Position numbers and translations under genes: made by a program | Shown here: one piece after another, positions 8,481 through 34,519 of the stretch | Position numbering within the stretch: the first letter of the stretch is position 1 | How the letters are laid out: each line of letters begins with the position of its first letter | Origin: a bacterium | GTDB taxonomy: Bacteria; Lernaellota; Lernaellaia; JACKCT01 | Length of the DNA stretch: 64,000 nt | Assembly: GCA_019912885.1 (NCBI GenBank) | Contig: JAIOHV010000056.1 | Span: forward strand, 1-64,000 | Reading direction: 5' to 3' | Notes under the pieces: generated by a model | What the model was told of the DNA's origin: nothing | What the model saw: the letters and a program-made list of their open reading frames with translations, nothing else | The model's database searches: none

Positions 8481-9353
8481 ATGTCGTTTTTCGCCGACCT
8501 CGCGCGCTACGATTTCCTGCGCATCGCCGTGTTGACGGCGCTTCTGGCGAGCGTGGCGTGCGGCATCGTCGGCACGTACGTCGTCACGCGGCGCATCACG
8601 TATCTGGCGGGCGCGATTTCGCACAGCATCCTCGGCGGGATGGGGCTGTTCGTGTATCTCGCGAAGGTGCACGGATTGGACTTTCTGCAGCCGCTGCACG
8701 GAGCGCTCGTCGCGGCGCTCGGTTCGGCCTTGCTTGCCGGTTGGGTCACGCTGCGCATGCGCGAGCGCGAGGACATGGTGATCGGCGCAATCTGGGCGGT
8801 CGGCATGGCCGTGGGCGTCTTGTTCATCTCGCGCACGCCAGGCTTCGCCGAAGACCTGATGAACTACCTGTTCGGCAACATCCTCATGGTCTCGCGGCAC
8901 GACGTGGCGCTCATCGCGATGCTCGATGCGCTTATCGTCGCCGTCTGCCTCGTATTTTACGACCAGTTTCTCGTCGTGTGCTTCGATCCGCTCCACGCGC
9001 GTGTGCGGGGCCTCGCCGACGAGACGTTCCATCTGATGCTTCTGACGCTGACGGCGCTCACCGTCGTCTTGCTCGTCTCGGTCGTCGGGATCGTTCTCGT
9101 CATCGCGCTTCTCACCTTGCCGATCGCCATCGCGTCCGTGTGGTCGCGCACCATTGGGGGCATGATGATCTCCTCGATTCTCGTGTGCGCGGCGCTGACG
9201 GTGGGAGGGCTCGCCGCGAGCTACGAAACGAATCTGCCCGCCGGAGCGACGATCATCGTCGTGGCCGCGGCGTCGTACCTGGCGGTGTTCGCGGTATCGC
9301 GCATTGTCGCAAAGCGCCGGAAGGCGCTTAAAGGCGAGGCGGTCAGCGGATAA
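8481..9353 (+). CDS. znuB: Zinc ABC transporter, permease (ZnuB-like)
   Basis: A 290-residue inner-membrane protein of the ABC-3 family with about eight hydrophobic segments. Examples are 'IAVLTALLASVACGIVGTYV', 'MVIGAIWAVGMAVGVLFI' and 'VVLLVSVVGIVLVIALLTLP'. The typical early G-x-Y-V-V-x-R-R motif and an A-x-S-H-S-I-L-G-G motif are present. It is the last gene of the regulator-znuA-znuC-znuB operon. Its 3' end overlaps by 11 bp the 3' end of the convergent epimerase gene. Confidence 0.92.
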   Translation: MSFFADLARYDFLRIAVLTALLASVACGIVGTYVVTRRITYLAGAISHSILGGMGLFVYLAKVHGLDFLQPLHGALVAALGSALLAGWVTLRMREREDMVIGAIWAVGMAVGVLFISRTPGFAEDLMNYLFGNILMVSRHDVALIAMLDALIVAVCLVFYDQFLVVCFDPLHARVRGLADETFHLMLLTLTALTVVLLVSVVGIVLVIALLTLPIAIASVWSRTIGGMMISSILVCAALTVGGLAASYETNLPAGATIIVVAAASYLAVFAVSRIVAKRRKALKGEAVSG

Positions 9354-10398: not shown

Positions 10399-10761
10399 CT
10401 AGAGAACCTCGCTTTTGAGTTCCTTGAGATAGCCTCGCAGAATCGCAAGAACCTCGTGCCCCGCGGGCGTGAGCGCATACTCCCGGCGCGCGCGGAGGCC
10501 GCCGTCGGGATCGGCCATGCTGCTCAACCAACCGCGTTGCTCGAGTCGCTTGAGAAGGGGATACAACGTACCGGGGCTAACCTCGTAACCGTGATGCCGA
10601 AGTTCCCGGATCATCCATTGGCCGACCACCGGCTTCTTCGCCGCGTGGTGGAGGATGTGGATTTTCCAGAATGAAAGCAGAAATTCGCGTTCGATGCTTT
10701 TGGCGTCGATCGCTGGCGTTCCGCCCTTCGCTAGCTTTCGCGGTACTTCGATACTTTTCAC
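10399..10761 (-). CDS. PadR-family transcriptional regulator
   Basis: A 120-residue winged-helix regulator. The PadR core is clear: 'SFWKIHILHHAAKKPVVGQW' leads into M-I-R-E-L-R-H-H-G-Y-E-V-S-P-G-T-L-Y-P-L-L, then the wing R-A-R-R-E-Y-A-L-T-P-A-G. A C-terminal dimerisation helix follows. I chose the GTG at 10761 because GGAG lies six bases upstream. An ATG at 10776 directly abuts the palindrome and has no ribosome site. The perfect palindrome in the leader suggests autoregulation. No efflux pump or catabolic gene, the usual PadR targets, is adjacent; the nearest downstream gene is the epimerase. Confidence 0.83.
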   Translation of the reverse strand: MKSIEVPRKLAKGGTPAIDAKSIEREFLLSFWKIHILHHAAKKPVVGQWMIRELRHHGYEVSPGTLYPLLKRLEQRGWLSSMADPDGGLRARREYALTPAGHEVLAILRGYLKELKSEVL

Positions 10762-10854: not shown

Positions 10855-11094
10855 CGAGGTGTCAAGCCCACAATTGCGAATGCGGTCGCCCGGACTTTTT
10901 CCGAGAACCGCAACGGCGTTTTCAGTCTCAAATTCAGACGGATCAGAACGCGCCCACGACCTTTCCGGAACGGGGGCTCATTCCGCAAAACTCGTTGAAT
11001 TTGGGAATGAAATCGGAATCCGTAGTCGGAAACCGATATCGGGGCACGGCTATTGCACATCGCTCTGTCCGTCGTAACCCCTATGGAGTTTCCA
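10855..11094. other. Leader region of the multiheme cytochrome gene
   Basis: This 240-bp stretch contains no gene. It holds a sigma-54 type promoter at 11043-11057. About 40-60 bp upstream is an inverted repeat, CATTCC-N19-GGAATG (10979-11009), that could bind an enhancer-binding protein. The repeat is weak evidence on its own. Confidence 0.45.
11043..11057 (+). promoter_or_regulatory. Sigma-54 (-24/-12) promoter of cytochrome gene
   Basis: The sequence GGCACG-GCTA-TTGCA has the GG and GC dinucleotides exactly 10 bp apart and matches the sigma-54 consensus (TGGCACG-N4-TTGCA) at all positions except the first T. Transcription would start near 11068, about 27 bp before the cytochrome start codon. 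Such promoters need an NtrC-type activator; one is encoded at 33134-34519, but a link is not shown. Confidence 0.7.
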
Positions 11095-13251
11095 ATGCAA
11101 GTTCTGAATACAAGAAATTGGATCTGGGCGCTGTGCCTGGTGGCCATGCTGGCGTTCGTCGCCGCATGCGACGGCGGCGCTGACGGCGAGGATGGCGCGA
11201 GCGGAGAAGCAGGTCCGGCCGGAGCCGACGGTTCGAATGGGTCCAACGGCTCGGACGGCCTTGACGGAGCGGACGGGGCCGACGGTGAAGACGGAGCCGA
11301 CGGCAGCGATGGATTGGATGGTTCCGACGGTTTGGACGGCTCCGACGGTTTGGACGGCTCCGATGGTTTGGACGGCTCCGACGGCGAGGATGGCGAGGAC
11401 GGCGAGGACGGTGAAGGCACATACGGCACCCTGCCGAACGGCGTCACCGGCCGCGTTCTCGACACCGCCGACGACCCAATCGCTGACGCATACGTTTTCC
11501 TCATCCCTGTCGAGGACGTGACGGGCATCGCGATCAACATGGATCCGACGACGTTCGACGCCGCGGCGACCGACGACGAGCCGCTCGAAGATCTGATTCG
11601 CGGCCAGCTTGCCGCCGCGATCACCTATCAATACGGCGTGACCGACGGCGAAGGCATCTACGCGATCGACGATGTCGAAGCGGGCGCGTATTTCCTTTAC
11701 GTGCAGCCCGACGCCCTCGACGGCGACCACCTGCCCGGCGGCAATCTGTCGCGCGCGTCGTACGATGCCGACGACCTGTACGGCACCAAGCGGCCCATTA
11801 CGCTTTCGATGAGCGTCGGCGAAAACGCCCGCTTCGTCGGCTCGTCGGTGTGCCTGAACTGCCACGGCTACACGCACGAATTAAAGACCATGCACAAGCT
11901 CGGCATCCACAATCCGTACCAGGAAAGCGGACTTCAGGACTGGGATCTCGATCGCCACGAGGCGTTGCTGGACGGTTACGACCTGTTTGAGGACGACACG
12001 CTTGTTTACTACTACGATTACGACGGCGGCCGCGGATTCGACAAGTACAAGACCTCCCTGACCCCGCCGGCGGGAAATCTGAGCCTGACGGTGCGTCTCT
12101 GGAAAGACGGATCGCTATACAAGATGACGCTCACCGACCAGAAGGTGAACATCGGCGCCACCGCGACCTACACCGTCGATCTGGGGTACGGCGGCGGCGT
12201 GTACAAGCAGCGCTACAACACGAAGATCGGCGACAGCTTCTACCCGATGCCGGTTCAGTACCAAGAGGAGGGCAGCGAAACGTATTCGCCGCGCACACGC
12301 AAGGTGATTCGCGATTATCACGCCGACTGGTACTTCAGCGAATCCACGGGTCTCAAGACACCGGCCAAGAGCAAGTCGTTCGACAAGACCTGCGCGAGTT
12401 GCCATTACAACGGCTTCTCGCTCACCGGCAACGATACCGACGGCTGGAAGGCGATGGCGGTCTCGGATCCGAATGGCGAGCTGGACCTTGACGGCGACGG
12501 GGTGCCGGAAGAGCTGAACCTCGGCTGCGAATCCTGCCACGGTCCCGGCTCCAACCACTGGAAGAACGCCGGACAGGGCAAATACATCGTCTCCCCGGCG
12601 AACCTCGCCGCGGAACGCAGCTCGATGATCTGCGGCCAGTGCCACAGCCGTCCGAAGGGCAAGAACCTCGAGGACACGCCGATCAACGACAATAACGAAA
12701 TGATGATCGCGGGCACGAGCCGCGAGGTCTTCCTGGCCGACTACACGAGCCGCGCGGACGGCGCCGCGTCGGATTTCTACGCCGACGACAACCTGCACTC
12801 CAAGAGCCACCATCAGCAGTACACCGACTACGTGCGTAGTGCGCATTACCGCAACGAGTTCGTCCTGCTTTCGTGCGCCGATTGCCACGACCCGCACGGG
12901 GAGGACGACAATCAGGCCCAGTTGCTTGAAGACCCGGACGACAATGCCCTTTGCACGAAATGTCATGTGGATCTGGCCGGCGACGCCAAGCCGCACATCC
13001 TGGCGAAAGTCGGCTACGATCACACTTTCATGGAACCCACGTGCGTGGACTGCCACATGGTCAAGACGGCCAAGACGGGCGCCGGCGCGCCGAGCGTGGT
13101 CGGCAGCGGTTACTGGATGAACGACATCACGTCGCACATGATGGATGTGCCCAGAAAGACGATCCTGGCGGGGCAGACGCCAAGTGATAGCCTGATGCCG
13201 ATTCCGTACACGAACTCGTGCGGCGGCTGCCACGACTTCCCGATCGAATAA
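11095..13251 (+). CDS. Octaheme c-type cytochrome lipoprotein with collagen-like stalk
   Basis: A 718-residue lipoprotein. The signal peptide ends in the lipobox V-A-A-C (Cys25). Residues 28-107 are about 26 uninterrupted Gly-x-y triplets (mostly G-S-D, G-L-D and G-E-D), a collagen-like acidic stalk. A carboxypeptidase-regulatory-like beta domain follows (T-G-R-V-L-D-T-A-D-D-P-I-A-D-A-Y-V). The rest carries eight C-x-x-C-H heme sites: CLNCH, CASCH, CESCH, CGQCH, CADCH, CTKCH, CVDCH and CGGCH. It probably carries electrons at or beyond the outer membrane. GGAG sits six bases before the ATG at 11095. It is a single gene ended by a strong terminator and has a sigma-54 promoter. Confidence 0.88.
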   Translation: MQVLNTRNWIWALCLVAMLAFVAACDGGADGEDGASGEAGPAGADGSNGSNGSDGLDGADGADGEDGADGSDGLDGSDGLDGSDGLDGSDGLDGSDGEDGEDGEDGEGTYGTLPNGVTGRVLDTADDPIADAYVFLIPVEDVTGIAINMDPTTFDAAATDDEPLEDLIRGQLAAAITYQYGVTDGEGIYAIDDVEAGAYFLYVQPDALDGDHLPGGNLSRASYDADDLYGTKRPITLSMSVGENARFVGSSVCLNCHGYTHELKTMHKLGIHNPYQESGLQDWDLDRHEALLDGYDLFEDDTLVYYYDYDGGRGFDKYKTSLTPPAGNLSLTVRLWKDGSLYKMTLTDQKVNIGATATYTVDLGYGGGVYKQRYNTKIGDSFYPMPVQYQEEGSETYSPRTRKVIRDYHADWYFSESTGLKTPAKSKSFDKTCASCHYNGFSLTGNDTDGWKAMAVSDPNGELDLDGDGVPEELNLGCESCHGPGSNHWKNAGQGKYIVSPANLAAERSSMICGQCHSRPKGKNLEDTPINDNNEMMIAGTSREVFLADYTSRADGAASDFYADDNLHSKSHHQQYTDYVRSAHYRNEFVLLSCADCHDPHGEDDNQAQLLEDPDDNALCTKCHVDLAGDAKPHILAKVGYDHTFMEPTCVDCHMVKTAKTGAGAPSVVGSGYWMNDITSHMMDVPRKTILAGQTPSDSLMPIPYTNSCGGCHDFPIE
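11302..11391 (+). repeat. 18-bp tandem repeat within collagen-like coding region
   Basis: Five 18-bp units (consensus GGCTCCGACGGTTTGGAC) run in frame and encode Gly-Ser-Asp-Gly-Leu-Asp. The middle units are nearly identical, so the stalk length is likely to vary by slippage or recombination. Confidence 0.85.
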
Positions 13252-13290: not shown

Positions 13291-13320
13291 CGCCCCGGCC
13301 ACGTGCCGGGGCGTAATTTT
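13291..13320 (+). terminator. Rho-independent terminator after cytochrome gene
   Basis: A perfect 9-bp stem, CGCCCCGGC/GCCGGGGCG, with loop CACGT is followed by TAATTTTT. It lies 40 bp past the stop codon. Confidence 0.85.
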
Positions 13321-13344
13321 TGTGCGCTCGAAATCCGGCGCGAC

Positions 13345-14917: not shown

Positions 14918-17068
14918 TTAGCACCCGCACGCGCCCTTGGGCTCGGACGATTCGTCGTCGTTCTCGTCGAACGACCAGCCGCCGCCTTCGGCCTCGGCGT
15001 TGGGGTCTTCGCTTCCATCGTCATCGTCGTCGGCGCCGGGGATGACGTCATCGGGGAAAGGCTCGCCGACAACCAGAACGCGCGTTTCAGGGATCAGGTC
15101 CGGGCCGGTGATCGTCGCCAGCAACTCGTCGCCGGGGGTGAGATCGGCATCGATTCGCACGGGTGAAAACAACCCCGGTTGCGCGTACGCGATGCCCACG
15201 GCCTCGCCGTCTTTCGTGATGCCGACCTGGGCAAAACGCCCCGCGTCAAGGCGCACGGTCAGGGCGCCGTCCGCCACCGCGCCGGAAAACGTCACCTGCG
15301 CGGCAACGGGCGGGCGCGAGGCAAGCGTCTGCTCGGGGTCGCCCATGAGGTTGTACATCTCGATGTAACGCGTCGCGAAGCCCTCGCCGCCCAGGTATTG
15401 CCATAGCGCGAGCTTGGCGTAGTCCGTCATGCCGGAAATCCATGTGAGCGCGATCGGCGCCTTGCCGCCGAGAAACGCCTCGAACATCGCCTTTTCGAGA
15501 ATGTCGTCTTCGTCCCAGAAGCTGTTGACGGAGCTGGCCCAGGCCGCGTGGCCGCCGGCTTCCGCGACAACCCACGCCTCCGAGAGCGCCAATTCGACAT
15601 CGTAAGCGCCAGTGACGCACGCGAACGAGAACACGGCGGGGTAAGCGGAGTTCTCGAGTTTGTCGATCTGATTGATACCGTACGGCGGGCCGTCGGTCCA
15701 TTTGTTTTCGGCACCGTGACCGGAATAGACAAGCAGCTCGGGTCCTTCGTTGACGGCATCCGTCACGTCGTTCGGCGTGGCGCCGCGCGCGTGATAGACG
15801 CGCTCGTTCCGATAACCCGCGGGTTCGGTGAAATGTTCGATGATGTAGTCGTGCGTGCCTTCGGTGATCTCCGCGCGGTCCAGGGACGCCAAAAATACCG
15901 CCGTCAGCGGCGACGCAAGCGGCGCGACGTCGCGGTCGTGCGCGAGCGATTTGCGCACGATGTTCGCGAGTTGCACCGCGTCTCGGGCCGGGAAACGTCC
16001 AATCGCCAGGTCCGGAAAGACATCCTCGTCCATGAGCGCGTACATCGAATCGGAGGCCGGCGCGCTCAGATCCGTGCCGACAAATGCCGGAATCTGGCCG
16101 ACATCGCCAAGCAGCAGAACGTACGCGGGCGGCGCGTCCCAGGTTTCGTACGCGTCGCGGATCGTCTCGCGGATCGCCTCGGGTTCGCCGCCGGCTTCCC
16201 CGGTTGTCAGGAACACGACGTCGTAGCCTTTTTGTTCTTTCCAGGCCGCGAATTCGGCGAACGATTCCTCCGATGCGAGCAGCGGATCGCCGATCACGAG
16301 GTAGCTTGCCCGCGTTACCGCGCCGCGCCATTCCCACGGATGGACGGTCTCGTCCTCACCGCCGGGGGGAAGAAGGCCGTGGAGGATCGCCCCGGAACGC
16401 GGATCGAAGTAGCGCGCGCGCCGCTCGTGCGTCGCGGCGATGTCCGCCCCGGGGAAGGCCACGTCAATCCGCATGTCTTCGCGCACGAGCAGCGTGCCGC
16501 GCGCGGGGTTGTAGTCGATCGGCCGCGCTTCGATGAGCGTCAGGCGCGTGCCGCGCAGATGCCCGACGACGCGGGCCGTAGCGGCTTCGCGAAAGCGATA
16601 TCCGTCGTGGGCAAAGGCGCGGGTGTCGATGACGAATCCGTCCCCGGGCGAGGTACTCGGAAGTTTCTCGACGGACCGGAACGCGGGTGCAAGGCGCGCG
16701 CGGCCGGTGAGCGCCGAAACGTCCATCGTCCGTTCGGTGAAGTGCGCCGTGACGACGACATCCGCGCCTTCAGGCACGGCGATGAGGCGGCGCACGACCG
16801 GCAGGGCGGGCGCGCCCGGTTTTCCGTCGACACCGGAGCCGTCGAGCGTTAGCGTCGCGTAGGCCGGGTCCAGGGCGAGCGGCGCTACGAAGGCGCCGGT
16901 CGTGGTGAGCGTCAGCGTCAAGCCGCCGGATGCGGGTCGCGCGACCTTGACGCGGACGGGCATTCCGTCGAAAGACGATGAGAACGCCACGGCGCGCGGG
17001 GCCGCAATTCCCGCCGCCACGGACAGGATGACGGCGATGATCGCGATCGTGACGGTAAGTCGACGCAC
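14918..17068 (-). CDS. Secreted C25 (gingipain-type) cysteine protease
   Basis: About 716 residues with a signal peptide. The first third resembles the propeptide region of gingipain-like proteases. The catalytic domain has a D-V-G-Q-I-P box, then the catalytic His in L-L-V-Y-S-G-H-G-A and the catalytic Cys in F-S-F-A-C-V-T-G. It is followed by a beta-sandwich domain, an acidic Asp-rich linker (about residues 680-710) and the last residues G-A-C-G-C. The Cys-Gly-Cys tail after an acidic spacer looks like a sorting or anchoring tag. The start is the GTG at 17068, four bases after GGAGG; a GTG at 17095 is possible. It is transcribed divergently from malQ. Confidence 0.82.
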   Translation of the reverse strand: MRRLTVTIAIIAVILSVAAGIAAPRAVAFSSSFDGMPVRVKVARPASGGLTLTLTTTGAFVAPLALDPAYATLTLDGSGVDGKPGAPALPVVRRLIAVPEGADVVVTAHFTERTMDVSALTGRARLAPAFRSVEKLPSTSPGDGFVIDTRAFAHDGYRFREAATARVVGHLRGTRLTLIEARPIDYNPARGTLLVREDMRIDVAFPGADIAATHERRARYFDPRSGAILHGLLPPGGEDETVHPWEWRGAVTRASYLVIGDPLLASEESFAEFAAWKEQKGYDVVFLTTGEAGGEPEAIRETIRDAYETWDAPPAYVLLLGDVGQIPAFVGTDLSAPASDSMYALMDEDVFPDLAIGRFPARDAVQLANIVRKSLAHDRDVAPLASPLTAVFLASLDRAEITEGTHDYIIEHFTEPAGYRNERVYHARGATPNDVTDAVNEGPELLVYSGHGAENKWTDGPPYGINQIDKLENSAYPAVFSFACVTGAYDVELALSEAWVVAEAGGHAAWASSVNSFWDEDDILEKAMFEAFLGGKAPIALTWISGMTDYAKLALWQYLGGEGFATRYIEMYNLMGDPEQTLASRPPVAAQVTFSGAVADGALTVRLDAGRFAQVGITKDGEAVGIAYAQPGLFSPVRIDADLTPGDELLATITGPDLIPETRVLVVGEPFPDDVIPGADDDDDGSEDPNAEAEGGGWSFDENDDESSEPKGACGC

Positions 17069-17167
17069 CGAGCCTCCCCAGGACAAGCGGCGCACGCAAG
17101 CGCCGCCATTGAACGTTTAGTATTTTTATCGGTAGATCGACGGAAGCCCTATAACACAAGGTGGGGT

Positions 17168-31109: not shown

Positions 31110-33137
31110 ATGAACGTCCGCACGCAGTCGCTGCTGTTCACCGCGTTCATCGCGCTCGTTCTGGCGATCGTCGTCTGGACACGCAAGGAACGCAGCCGCA
31201 CCACCCTGCCGTTTTTTCTCTCCAATATTTTCTTGCTCGGTTTTTCGGCGTCGTACGTGCTGTGGAAGCTGACCGGCGACAGCGCCTTTCTGCGCGCCTA
31301 CGTTGTCGCGACGTTTTTTCTTGCCGCGGGTTACATGTATCTCGCGTACAGCTACATGTTTCGTCCCAGCCGCGTGGTCGAGGCGCTTTTGATCGTCCTT
31401 TTCGCCGCAAGCGCGGCGGCGGCCGTGACGTCGTATGTCCCGCGCCTGGATACCGCGTTGCGCGTGATGGCGTTTTTTCCGCCGGCCGACCGGCCGCGCC
31501 GTGCCGCCGGGGCGGTCTGGCTCGTTTCCGCGCCCACGTTGGTATTGATCCTTGGCCGCCTGCTTGGCGAAAAGGAGCCGCTGCTTCGCCGCCGCTATCT
31601 CGGCCTGTTCGGAATGTCGCTTTCGGCCGCGGGGGTGATCTCGCTCGACCAGCTCATCCGGGGCGGGCCGATCGGCCCCGCGGCGCACGCCTTTTATCAT
31701 TACTATCTCTATCAGGCGCTGGTGCGTTCGCGCAGCTTCAACCTCCCGCGCGCGGCCGGGCGTCTTGCCGTGCTGCTTTTGTCGGCCACGTTTCTCGCGA
31801 TCGTGTATGGCGCCTTTTTCTTTTTCATCCGGCCGATTCCCGTGCTGTTTTTCATCCATACGCTTTTCGCCGCGTTCATCCTGATGCTGATGTACGAGCC
31901 TTTGTTCGCGGGGATCGACGAGCGCGCGCGCGAGCTGGTGATGCGCGGCCGGGGCGATGTGCTGCGCCGCATCGACCGCCTCAACGCCGACCTGGCATCG
32001 CAATTCTCGCTCGACGAGATCGGAGCGTTTCTCGCCGGGCACGCCCCGCGCGAACTTGACCTTGCGCGCGCAGCGGTGTACCTGGCGGACGATTCGGGCG
32101 CGCTCGTTCGCCTGGCCGGCGACGGCGAAGCCCCCGGACGCTTTGACGCGGCGGCCACGGAGGCCGCGGCAGGATTGCCGGCGGACCCGACGACGCGCGA
32201 GCGGCTCACGCAACTGGCCTCCGAAAGTTACGTCGGCCCCGAAAAAGACCGCTGGGTCACGCTGCTTCGCCTTTTGCGCGACGGCGGCGCGCGGTGGATC
32301 GTGCCTCTGCGTCACCGCGACGAGCTTGTCGGCATCTATCTGGTCGGGCACGCGGCCGGCGTCGATGAGGCGGAAACCATGCGCGTTCTCCGCGCGCTGG
32401 CGGACCAGGCGGCGGTGCGCATCGCGAACGCGCGCATCTATCAGCGCATGCGTTCGCAGGATCGCCTCGCGACGCTCGGCGAAATGGCGGCGTCGGTCGC
32501 GCACGAAGTCCGCAACCCGCTCTCGTCGATGAAAGGCGCGGCGCAATATCTTCTCGACGAAAATCTGCCGAAAAGCTCACGCGAGTTCGTGGAGATCATT
32601 CTCGACGAAACGAACCGGCTGAACAGCATCCTCACGCGATATCTCGATTACGCGCGGCCCTTCGAAATCCGGCGTGCCGAAGTCGATTTGAACGAAACGG
32701 TGCGCGCGGTGGTCGGATTTCTGTCCGACGGCGACAAGCCGGCGAACGTCGCGATCGAGATGAAGCTTGACGAAACGCTCGGCACGCTCAGCATGGACGT
32801 GGAGCAGATCCGGCAGGTGCTCATCAACCTCATCAAGAACGCGTGGGAGGCGCAACCGCGGGGCGGCCTCGTTCGCGTGGCGACGCGAAGCGCCGGAGAC
32901 CGGGTGCTCGTGGAAGTCATCGACCGGGGCGCGGGTATCGGCCCCGCGGAGCGGGAAAAATTGTTCATGCCGTTTTTTTCGACCAAACCGGCGGGATCGG
33001 GCCTCGGGTTGACGATCTCGCAACGCATTGCGCTCGCGCACGGGGGACGTATCTTCGCCGAGCCGGCCCAGGCCGGCGGCAGCCGCTTTGTGCTCGACCT
33101 TCCGCGTGACGGCGACACCCGTGAGCCGCGCCCATGA
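31110..33137 (+). CDS. Membrane sensor histidine kinase (NtrB-like, with GAF)
   Basis: A 675-residue kinase. The N-terminal 270 residues hold about eight membrane helices and no large periplasmic domain, so the signal is likely within the membrane or cytoplasmic. A GAF-like domain follows (about 290-450). The H-box is A-S-V-A-H-E-V-R-N-P-L-S-S-M-K. The ATPase domain has the N-box I-N-L-I-K-N-A-W-E-A and the G boxes D-R-G-A-G-I and G-S-G-L-G-L. The layout resembles the PrsK group, but the H-box is NtrB-like. It overlaps the regulator gene by ATGA, making a cognate pair. Confidence 0.92.
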   Translation: MNVRTQSLLFTAFIALVLAIVVWTRKERSRTTLPFFLSNIFLLGFSASYVLWKLTGDSAFLRAYVVATFFLAAGYMYLAYSYMFRPSRVVEALLIVLFAASAAAAVTSYVPRLDTALRVMAFFPPADRPRRAAGAVWLVSAPTLVLILGRLLGEKEPLLRRRYLGLFGMSLSAAGVISLDQLIRGGPIGPAAHAFYHYYLYQALVRSRSFNLPRAAGRLAVLLLSATFLAIVYGAFFFFIRPIPVLFFIHTLFAAFILMLMYEPLFAGIDERARELVMRGRGDVLRRIDRLNADLASQFSLDEIGAFLAGHAPRELDLARAAVYLADDSGALVRLAGDGEAPGRFDAAATEAAAGLPADPTTRERLTQLASESYVGPEKDRWVTLLRLLRDGGARWIVPLRHRDELVGIYLVGHAAGVDEAETMRVLRALADQAAVRIANARIYQRMRSQDRLATLGEMAASVAHEVRNPLSSMKGAAQYLLDENLPKSSREFVEIILDETNRLNSILTRYLDYARPFEIRRAEVDLNETVRAVVGFLSDGDKPANVAIEMKLDETLGTLSMDVEQIRQVLINLIKNAWEAQPRGGLVRVATRSAGDRVLVEVIDRGAGIGPAEREKLFMPFFSTKPAGSGLGLTISQRIALAHGGRIFAEPAQAGGSRFVLDLPRDGDTREPRP

Positions 33138-34519
33138 GCGGTACGATTCTCGTCGTGGACGACGAAAAGAACATCCGCCGCGTGCTCCGCGCGACGCTCG
33201 AGCGCGAGGGTTACGACGTTGTTGAGGCCGAGAGCGGCGAAGAGGCGCTCGCGATTCTTTCTCGCGAGCGCGTTGAGTGCGTATTGACCGATTTGCGCAT
33301 GCCCGGCATCGACGGCATGGAGGTGCTGGCGCGCTCGCTTGCCGCCGACCGCGAATTGCCGATCGTCATGCTGACCGCGCACGGAACGGTGAACACCGCC
33401 GTCGAGGCCATGAAGCGAGGCGCGTTCGACTATCTCACCAAGCCGTTTGACAAGGACGAACTGCTGGCGTCGGTGGCGCGCGCGGTGCGCCAGCGCGATC
33501 TGGCGCGCAGCGAACCGGACGAGCCGGTCGGCGGCGCCTCGCGAAACGCCGCGATGCGATCGCTTTACGCGATGATCGACAAGGTCGCGAAAAGTCCGAC
33601 CACGGTCCTCATCACCGGCGAATCCGGCACGGGCAAGGAGCTTGTCGCGCGGATGTTGCACGAGCGCGGCGATCGCGCGGACAAGCCGTATATCCGCATC
33701 AATTGCGCGGCCATGCCCGCGACCCTCGTCGAAAGCGAGTTGTTCGGGTACGAGCGCGGCGCGTTCACCGGCGCGGTGGGGAGTAAACCCGGGCGATTCG
33801 AATTGGCCGACAAGGGCACGCTGTTTCTCGACGAAATCGGAACCGTGCCGCTCGAGACGCAGGTCAAGCTTCTGCGCGCGATTCAGGAGCAGGAGTTCGA
33901 GCGCGTGGGCGGCGTGAGTTCGATCCGCGTCAATGTGCGCCTCGTCACGGCGACGAACGTCGATCTCCGGCAGGAGGTCGCCGCGGGCCGTTTTCGCGAG
34001 GATTTGTATTACCGGCTCAATGTCGTGCATCTGCGCCTGCCGCCGCTTCGGGAACGAACCGAGGATCTGGACATGCTCGCGCGGCAATTTATCGAACGCG
34101 CGAACAAGCGCGTGAAAAAGCGCGTCACCGGCATCGGCCCGGATGCGTGGGCGAGGCTTCGCGCGCATGCATGGCCCGGCAATATCCGCGAGCTCGAAAA
34201 TGTCATCGAGCGCGCCGTGCTGCTGGCCGAGGGCGACACGATCGCCGCAAGCGACTTGCCCGATGAATTGGCGCACGCCGCGCCGGGCCCGGGCTCGCGA
34301 GCCGTTCCGGCGCCGGGCGCCGAGGCGGCGGGATTCGATCTGAAACAGGCTTCGCGCGAGGCGGCGGCGCGCGTGGAAATCGAGCTGATCGGCGCCGCGC
34401 TGAAAAAAACGCGCGGCAACGTGACGCAGGCCGCGAAGATCCTCGGCCTTTCGCGCAAGGGGCTACAGATCAAGATGCGCGAATACGGCCTGGATCGCGA
34501 CGCGAACGAGCCGGCCTGA
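33134..34519 (+). CDS. NtrC-family sigma-54 response regulator
   Basis: A 461-residue enhancer-binding protein. The receiver domain (1-120) has acidic residues Asp9/Asp10 and phospho-acceptor Asp53. The AAA+ domain has Walker A (G-E-S-G-T-G-K-E), the sigma-54 contact loop G-A-F-T-G-A and Walker B F-L-D-E-I-G. The arginine-finger region R-E-D-L-Y-Y-R-L and W-P-G-N-I-R-E-L-E-N follow. The C-terminal Fis-type helix-turn-helix (G-N-V-T-Q-A-A-K-I-L-G-L-S-R) binds upstream sites. Two sigma-54 promoters are visible in the window (11043 and 53195) and are possible targets, which is only inference. Confidence 0.94.
   Translation: MSGTILVVDDEKNIRRVLRATLEREGYDVVEAESGEEALAILSRERVECVLTDLRMPGIDGMEVLARSLAADRELPIVMLTAHGTVNTAVEAMKRGAFDYLTKPFDKDELLASVARAVRQRDLARSEPDEPVGGASRNAAMRSLYAMIDKVAKSPTTVLITGESGTGKELVARMLHERGDRADKPYIRINCAAMPATLVESELFGYERGAFTGAVGSKPGRFELADKGTLFLDEIGTVPLETQVKLLRAIQEQEFERVGGVSSIRVNVRLVTATNVDLRQEVAAGRFREDLYYRLNVVHLRLPPLRERTEDLDMLARQFIERANKRVKKRVTGIGPDAWARLRAHAWPGNIRELENVIERAVLLAEGDTIAASDLPDELAHAAPGPGSRAVPAPGAEAAGFDLKQASREAAARVEIELIGAALKKTRGNVTQAAKILGLSRKGLQIKMREYGLDRDANEPA

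Follow-up and report, generated by a model that had tools for sequence, protein, structure and literature searches.

For bacteria to trade electrons with minerals or electrodes, their hemes have to be positioned away from the membrane. The OmcA/MtrC family (TIGR03507) comprises lipid-anchored multiheme cytochromes, most with ten hemes and usually accompanied by an MtrB/MtrA conduit; its characterized members are found on the cell surface. The decaheme cytochromes of the GSU2203 and DmsE (MtrA-like) type (NF041028, TIGR03508) are periplasmic. Eight c-type hemes occur in enzymes such as tetrathionate reductase, ONR and HAO. Long uninterrupted spacers of Gly-x-y triplets, serving a C-terminal functional domain, are a feature of collagen-like bacterial surface proteins (Scl1/Scl2, BclA, Lcl), which have no hemes. 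Finally, PgcA of Geobacter sulfurreducens is a lipid-attached extracellular cytochrome with 29 PTX repeats and has been linked to Fe(III) oxide reduction (PMC5732950).

Here we consider a gene whose product shares features with each of these systems. It lies in the window, by which we mean the whole 64,000-nucleotide stretch of DNA that was analyzed, and we give a probability of about 0.6 to the view that it encodes a sigma-54-regulated, lipid-anchored octaheme electron-transfer cytochrome.

The likenesses to the described systems are partial. Five OmcA/MtrC-family proteins (L131, L134, L139, L141, L146) have a short Gly-x-y stretch of 4-7 triplets right after the lipobox, and one family protein with such a stretch is encoded in a genome that shares its taxonomic family with the window. 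The novelty claimed in the original prediction for a lipobox and Gly-x-y on a cytochrome is lost to these decaheme proteins, which already have the short form. But the window protein has 27 triplets and another domain layout, and TIGR03507 is not among its NCBIfam matches. The best curated models are NF041028 and TIGR03508, which cover hemes 3-7 and match 39 of 39 members of the family described below. The window protein is nevertheless far below their cut-offs (74.7 vs. 325 and 55.6 vs. 192.2 bits), and the GSU2203 and DmsE proteins have two more hemes and no lipobox, spacer or beta-domain. PgcA, likened here by description only, combines lipid attachment with a long repeat spacer, but it is triheme and its repeats, PTX rather than Gly-x-y, are placed between the hemes. 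The spacers of the collagen-like surface proteins are rich in proline and threonine, and their anchoring is different.

The Gene and Its Surroundings

The gene occupies 11095-13251 on the + strand (718 aa), with its stop at 13251. ATG 11095 is favored as the start because a Shine-Dalgarno-like GGAG (11085-11088, + strand) sits 6 nt ahead of it; the alternative, ATG 11083, would give 722 aa. On the gene's own set of frames, about 420 nt without an ORF separate the gene from the ORF that ends at 10674. An intrinsic terminator follows on the same strand (13291-13323; hairpin 13291-13313 with 9 G-C pairs, T-rich tail after it), and the next gene, for a glycosyltransferase, is convergent. With its own terminator and a convergent neighbor, the gene forms a monocistronic unit. 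The genes on the 5' side belong to a ZnuA/ABC-3 metal transporter set. On the 3' side, at 14918-17095 on the - strand, is a gingipain-like C25 peptidase with a propeptide and weak similarity to the type IX secretion sortase PorU. No obvious electron-transfer partner is seen among the transporter set or the peptidase. Like most of its homologs, the window gene has no multiheme gene next to it.

The signal peptide (11095-11166, + strand) ends at the lipobox, VAA/C, placing a lipoprotein signal ahead of the heme domains. Cys29 (11167-11169) is predicted to be lipid-modified, and the +2 residue is Asp. The Gly-x-y triplets come next (11176-11418), and then a transthyretin-like (carboxypeptidase-regulatory-like) beta-sandwich domain (11440-11811). 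The latter is below the Pfam cut-off in the window protein (PF13620, 20 bits vs. 32.3), but 13 of the 39 family members match the model at E ≤ 0.001, and Foldseek matches the predicted fold to the transthyretin-like region of carboxypeptidase D, so its original assignment is borne out. The octaheme domain (11818-13248) completes the protein. One polypeptide thus carries the lipobox, the Gly-x-y run, the beta-domain and the eight CXXCH sites, each at the place where it had been predicted. Assembly error as the source of this architecture was ruled out by the single open frame and by homologs that align end to end.

The Octaheme Domain and Its Family

The eight sites, all on the + strand, are CLNCH (residue 257, 11851-11865), CASCH (437, 12391-12405), CESCH (482, 12526-12540), CGQCH (517, 12631-12645), CADCH (598, 12874-12888), CTKCH (624, 12952-12966), CVDCH (654, 13042-13056) and CGGCH (713, 13219-13233). 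All are conserved in 39/39 aligned homologs when CX3CH and CX4CH variants at a late site are counted; in the betaproteobacterial members the last site is CX3CH. Nine histidines outside the motifs are also conserved (residues 271, 413, 492, 572, 576, 577, 605, 638 and 685; 32/39 for the least conserved), enough to supply eight distal ligands. Judged by these residues, all eight hemes are probably bis-histidine coordinated.

Predicted models of the protein are confident, with pLDDT values of 87.5 with the beta-domain and 80.7 without it. In the search for a known octaheme relative by fold, the full model found beta-sandwich domains only, and the heme part alone had no Foldseek match at E ≤ 0.001. 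Heme-free predicted folds are weak probes, and a missing match in such models does not establish that the fold is new. By sequence profiles, the heme part is related to the multiheme superfamily at large (6i5b, MtrA [6r2q], cf [6qvm], NrfB, NrfA, c554).

When genome contigs were scanned, 72 homologous loci emerged, and in most of them the homology runs from the beta-domain to the last of the eight hemes. Together the loci span Myxococcota, Nitrospirota, Betaproteobacteria, Desulfuromonadales, Bacillota and Planctomycetota. Iron-cycling genera are named among the hosts, as MAGs or isolates (Ramlibacter lithotrophicus, Rhodoferax, Thermincola ferriacetica, Geothermobacter). The 39 members aligned over the beta-domain and the eight hemes are 33-49% identical to the window protein. 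A search of 386 sampled genomes yielded two homologs at 47-51% identity, both without Gly-x-y; the heme domain is absent from G001-G006, the remaining genomes sampled from the small class to which the window's genome belongs. Homologs on plasmids were also considered and are remote (25-30% identity).

By their N-termini the homologs are of three tether types. About a dozen have a lipobox and Gly-x-y (L059, L060, L061, L062, L066, L072, L093, L101, L113, L116, L126), counting L060, L062 and L101, which the lipobox pattern did not recognize; in L110 and L121 the Gly-x-y is short. Betaproteobacteria and others have a lipobox with no spacer, and the Nitrospirota homologs have a plain signal peptide and are soluble and unanchored. 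A quick tree built from 64 heme domains requires only about four changes for the spacer, which lies mainly in the Myxococcota-like part; the window gene stands apart on a long branch. The combination of parts, of which the original prediction knew no other example, is not unique, being shared by about a dozen homologs. The comparison of homologs divides the original prediction of a heme domain borne on a Gly-x-y stalk: Gly-x-y is absent from most of them, but the heme domain is not a known periplasmic enzyme by curated models, profiles or fold search.

In literature coverage that was incomplete, we found no paper that joins collagen-like sequence with a multiheme cytochrome, and no curated family, solved structure or paper that describes the octaheme family. 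It follows that many genomes carry the family unnoticed, as a plain multiheme cytochrome.

The Gly-x-y Spacer

The Gly-x-y run is uninterrupted from residue 32 to 112 (Pfam Collagen, PF01391, E = 1.2e-12) and has 27 triplets, close to the 26 or so first counted. A chance run was ruled out by the number of triplets in frame and by recurrence among homologs. The composition is unusual. The spacer is strongly acidic (net -28): of its X and Y residues, 52% are acidic and none is basic. Proline makes up 4% of X and 0% of Y. In bacterial collagens generally, X-position proline averages 19% (PMC8968730). A rigid triple helix is doubtful in a spacer so acidic and so nearly free of proline; the helix is unproved and, judged by the composition, somewhat unlikely, which makes the collagen "stalk" of the original prediction doubtful for this sequence. 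The spacers of the homologs mostly have more proline.

Since most homologs lack it, Gly-x-y appears to be a variable tether that is not essential to the heme part. One can go further and suppose that it is a neutral acidic linker produced by slippage of DNA repeats, with no triple helix and no function in reach. This would concern the spacer alone and is compatible with our reading of the heme part. Tandem repeats of 9 and 18 bp do underlie the Gly-x-y stretch, and the scarcity of proline, the lack of basic residues and the many homologs without Gly-x-y are all in keeping with neutrality. However, Gly-x-y after the lipobox recurs in several lineages, at lengths of 9 to 45 triplets and with quite different composition, often proline-rich, and such recurrence suggests selection for a spacer. 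A paralog in the same genome also has one. We regard neutrality as possible, at less than even odds.

Control of Transcription

A putative sigma-54 promoter of the -24/-12 type, GGGCACGGCTATTGCA, lies at 11042-11057 on the + strand, with a GG-N10-GC core and one mismatch to TGGCACG-N4-TTGCW. From it, a transcript start is predicted near 11068. In the 120 nt before any one start, a site this good is expected about 0.0024 times. The genome has rpoN and 15 strong sigma-54 activator genes. Across the genome, GGCACGN4TTGCW shows no enrichment (11 matches vs. 11 for the reversed control), so the support for sigma-54 comes from position and from the homologs.

By per-locus Markov shuffles, the best upstream site has p ≤ 0.01 in the window and in a dozen other homologs. 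A kinase and a regulator adjoin the octaheme homolog in many loci. Sites with p ≤ 0.05 are present in 10/13 loci that have sigma-54 activators vs. 0/6 loci with other regulators (Fisher p = 0.003), a grouping that was made after the data were seen, in which one locus (L062) changed group after a domain search and the loci are not independent because many are closely related. The regulators of the 0/6 group have no sigma-54 signature, and the one scanned has an ArsR-type HTH. The one-mismatch site, rpoN, the sites 5' of many homologs and the adjoining activators together argue, at the level of sequence, for sigma-54 control as first proposed.

In the window itself no regulator is adjacent to the gene, and the nearest activator is 20 kb off. 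That activator is paired with a histidine kinase (31110-34519). The pair was considered as the regulator and set aside, its activator being no nearer to the family-associated activators than are the others of the genome. Weak palindromes are present near 10922-10985, 5' of the gene. No convincing shared DNA was found that could be an upstream activator site common to the window gene and the genes around its paralog on contig C26 (see below). Elsewhere in the window, a sigma-54-like site, AGGCACGCCTGTTGCT, precedes the gene of a large beta-propeller protein (PF09826, 53194-55551).

A Possible Role in Electron Transfer

Electron transfer, at the surface or in the periplasm, is the most likely role of the protein. 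From the anchoring, the spacer and the iron-cycling names among the hosts, we infer outward display and extracellular electron transfer. In the scheme that we prefer, a signal-responsive sigma-54 activator would turn the gene on, possibly within the heme-sensor kinase system beside the C26 paralog. The protein would be secreted and loaded with heme by the cytochrome c maturation proteins of the genome, whose cytochrome c assembly genes are present; it would then receive its lipid at Cys29 and stay on a membrane. Together, the acidic spacer and the beta-domain may set the eight-heme chain off from that membrane, and electrons could be exchanged with a partner cytochrome or with an acceptor or donor outside the cell (e.g., iron oxide or Fe(II)).

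Several points tell against this scheme, among them the lack of an adjacent regulator and of an adjacent multiheme gene in the window and the absence of genome-wide enrichment of the promoter pattern. The genome (G000) has no Mtr-type porin-cytochrome conduit: neither MtrB/PioB (PF11854) nor, at E ≤ 1e-15, a member of the OmcA/MtrC family was found in it. Also, Asp at +2 would mean retention in the inner membrane if the E. coli rule applied. The missing conduit and the Asp would both suit an inner-membrane lipoprotein that faces the periplasm, where the spacer would let the octaheme part swing as an electron shuttle. The soluble, unanchored Nitrospirota homologs would fit a periplasmic role as well, and so would the length of the spacer: fully extended, its 81 residues would span about 23 nm, a distance comparable to the depth of a periplasm. 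The +2 rule is enterobacterial, however, and may not be that of the host lineage; Glu or Ser is common at +2 in the stalked homologs, and Gly-x-y after the lipobox is shared with the OmcA/MtrC family, whose characterized members face outward. We consider such a periplasmic placement possible but unlikely. That the octaheme domain is instead a reductase or oxidase of small molecules (nitrite, sulfur species, hydroxylamine), as its heme count and profile similarity to NrfA, NrfB, cytochrome c554 and 6i5b might suggest, is quite improbable, given that the window protein has no CXXCK active-site heme and no match to a curated octaheme model or to the structure of such an enzyme, that the octaheme tetrathionate reductase model (TIGR04315) matches 1/39 family members and not the window protein, and that the conserved histidines suffice for bis-His ligation throughout.

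If the anchored electron-transfer cytochrome is the correct reading, the family represents a recurring modular solution to the problem of distance, spread over several phyla, some with iron-cycling members: one octaheme module that comes in a soluble form, on a lipid anchor, or on an anchor with a collagen-like spacer, and that is turned on by sensor-regulator pairs of its own. It is tempting, although rather a long shot, to extend this to stand-alone surface electron terminals that dispense with an Mtr-type conduit, each under sigma-54 and a two-component system of its own that senses redox state or heme, the Myxococcota-like stalk perhaps trimerizing to bundle 24 hemes.

Other Multiheme Genes of the Genome

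Contig C26 (L158, 2-6867, - strand) carries a histidine kinase, a sigma-54 activator, a nine-heme lipoprotein and, downstream of these, the paralog of the window gene, truncated by the contig end. The sensor part of the kinase has a CXXCH motif (CRSCH), and the kinase is homologous end to end, this motif included, to the kinase that adjoins the Nitrospirota members. The nine-heme lipoprotein has a short Gly-x-y of its own and a long Asp/Ser-rich linker. About 80 nt before the start of each of the two cytochrome genes of the contig is a GG-N10-GC site that ends in TTGCA.

On contig C123 (L159, 1825-5054, - strand), a sigma-54 activator adjoins a histidine kinase with two CXXCH motifs; at 8849 of the locus is a sigma-54 site of full consensus, TGGCACGCGTGTTGCT. 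Neighboring genes for 8-heme and 12-heme proteins are on contig C90 (L160, 1322-3533, - strand), and contig C130 (L161, 2300-3604, + strand) encodes a lipoprotein-like protein with 16 hemes in a repeated pattern.
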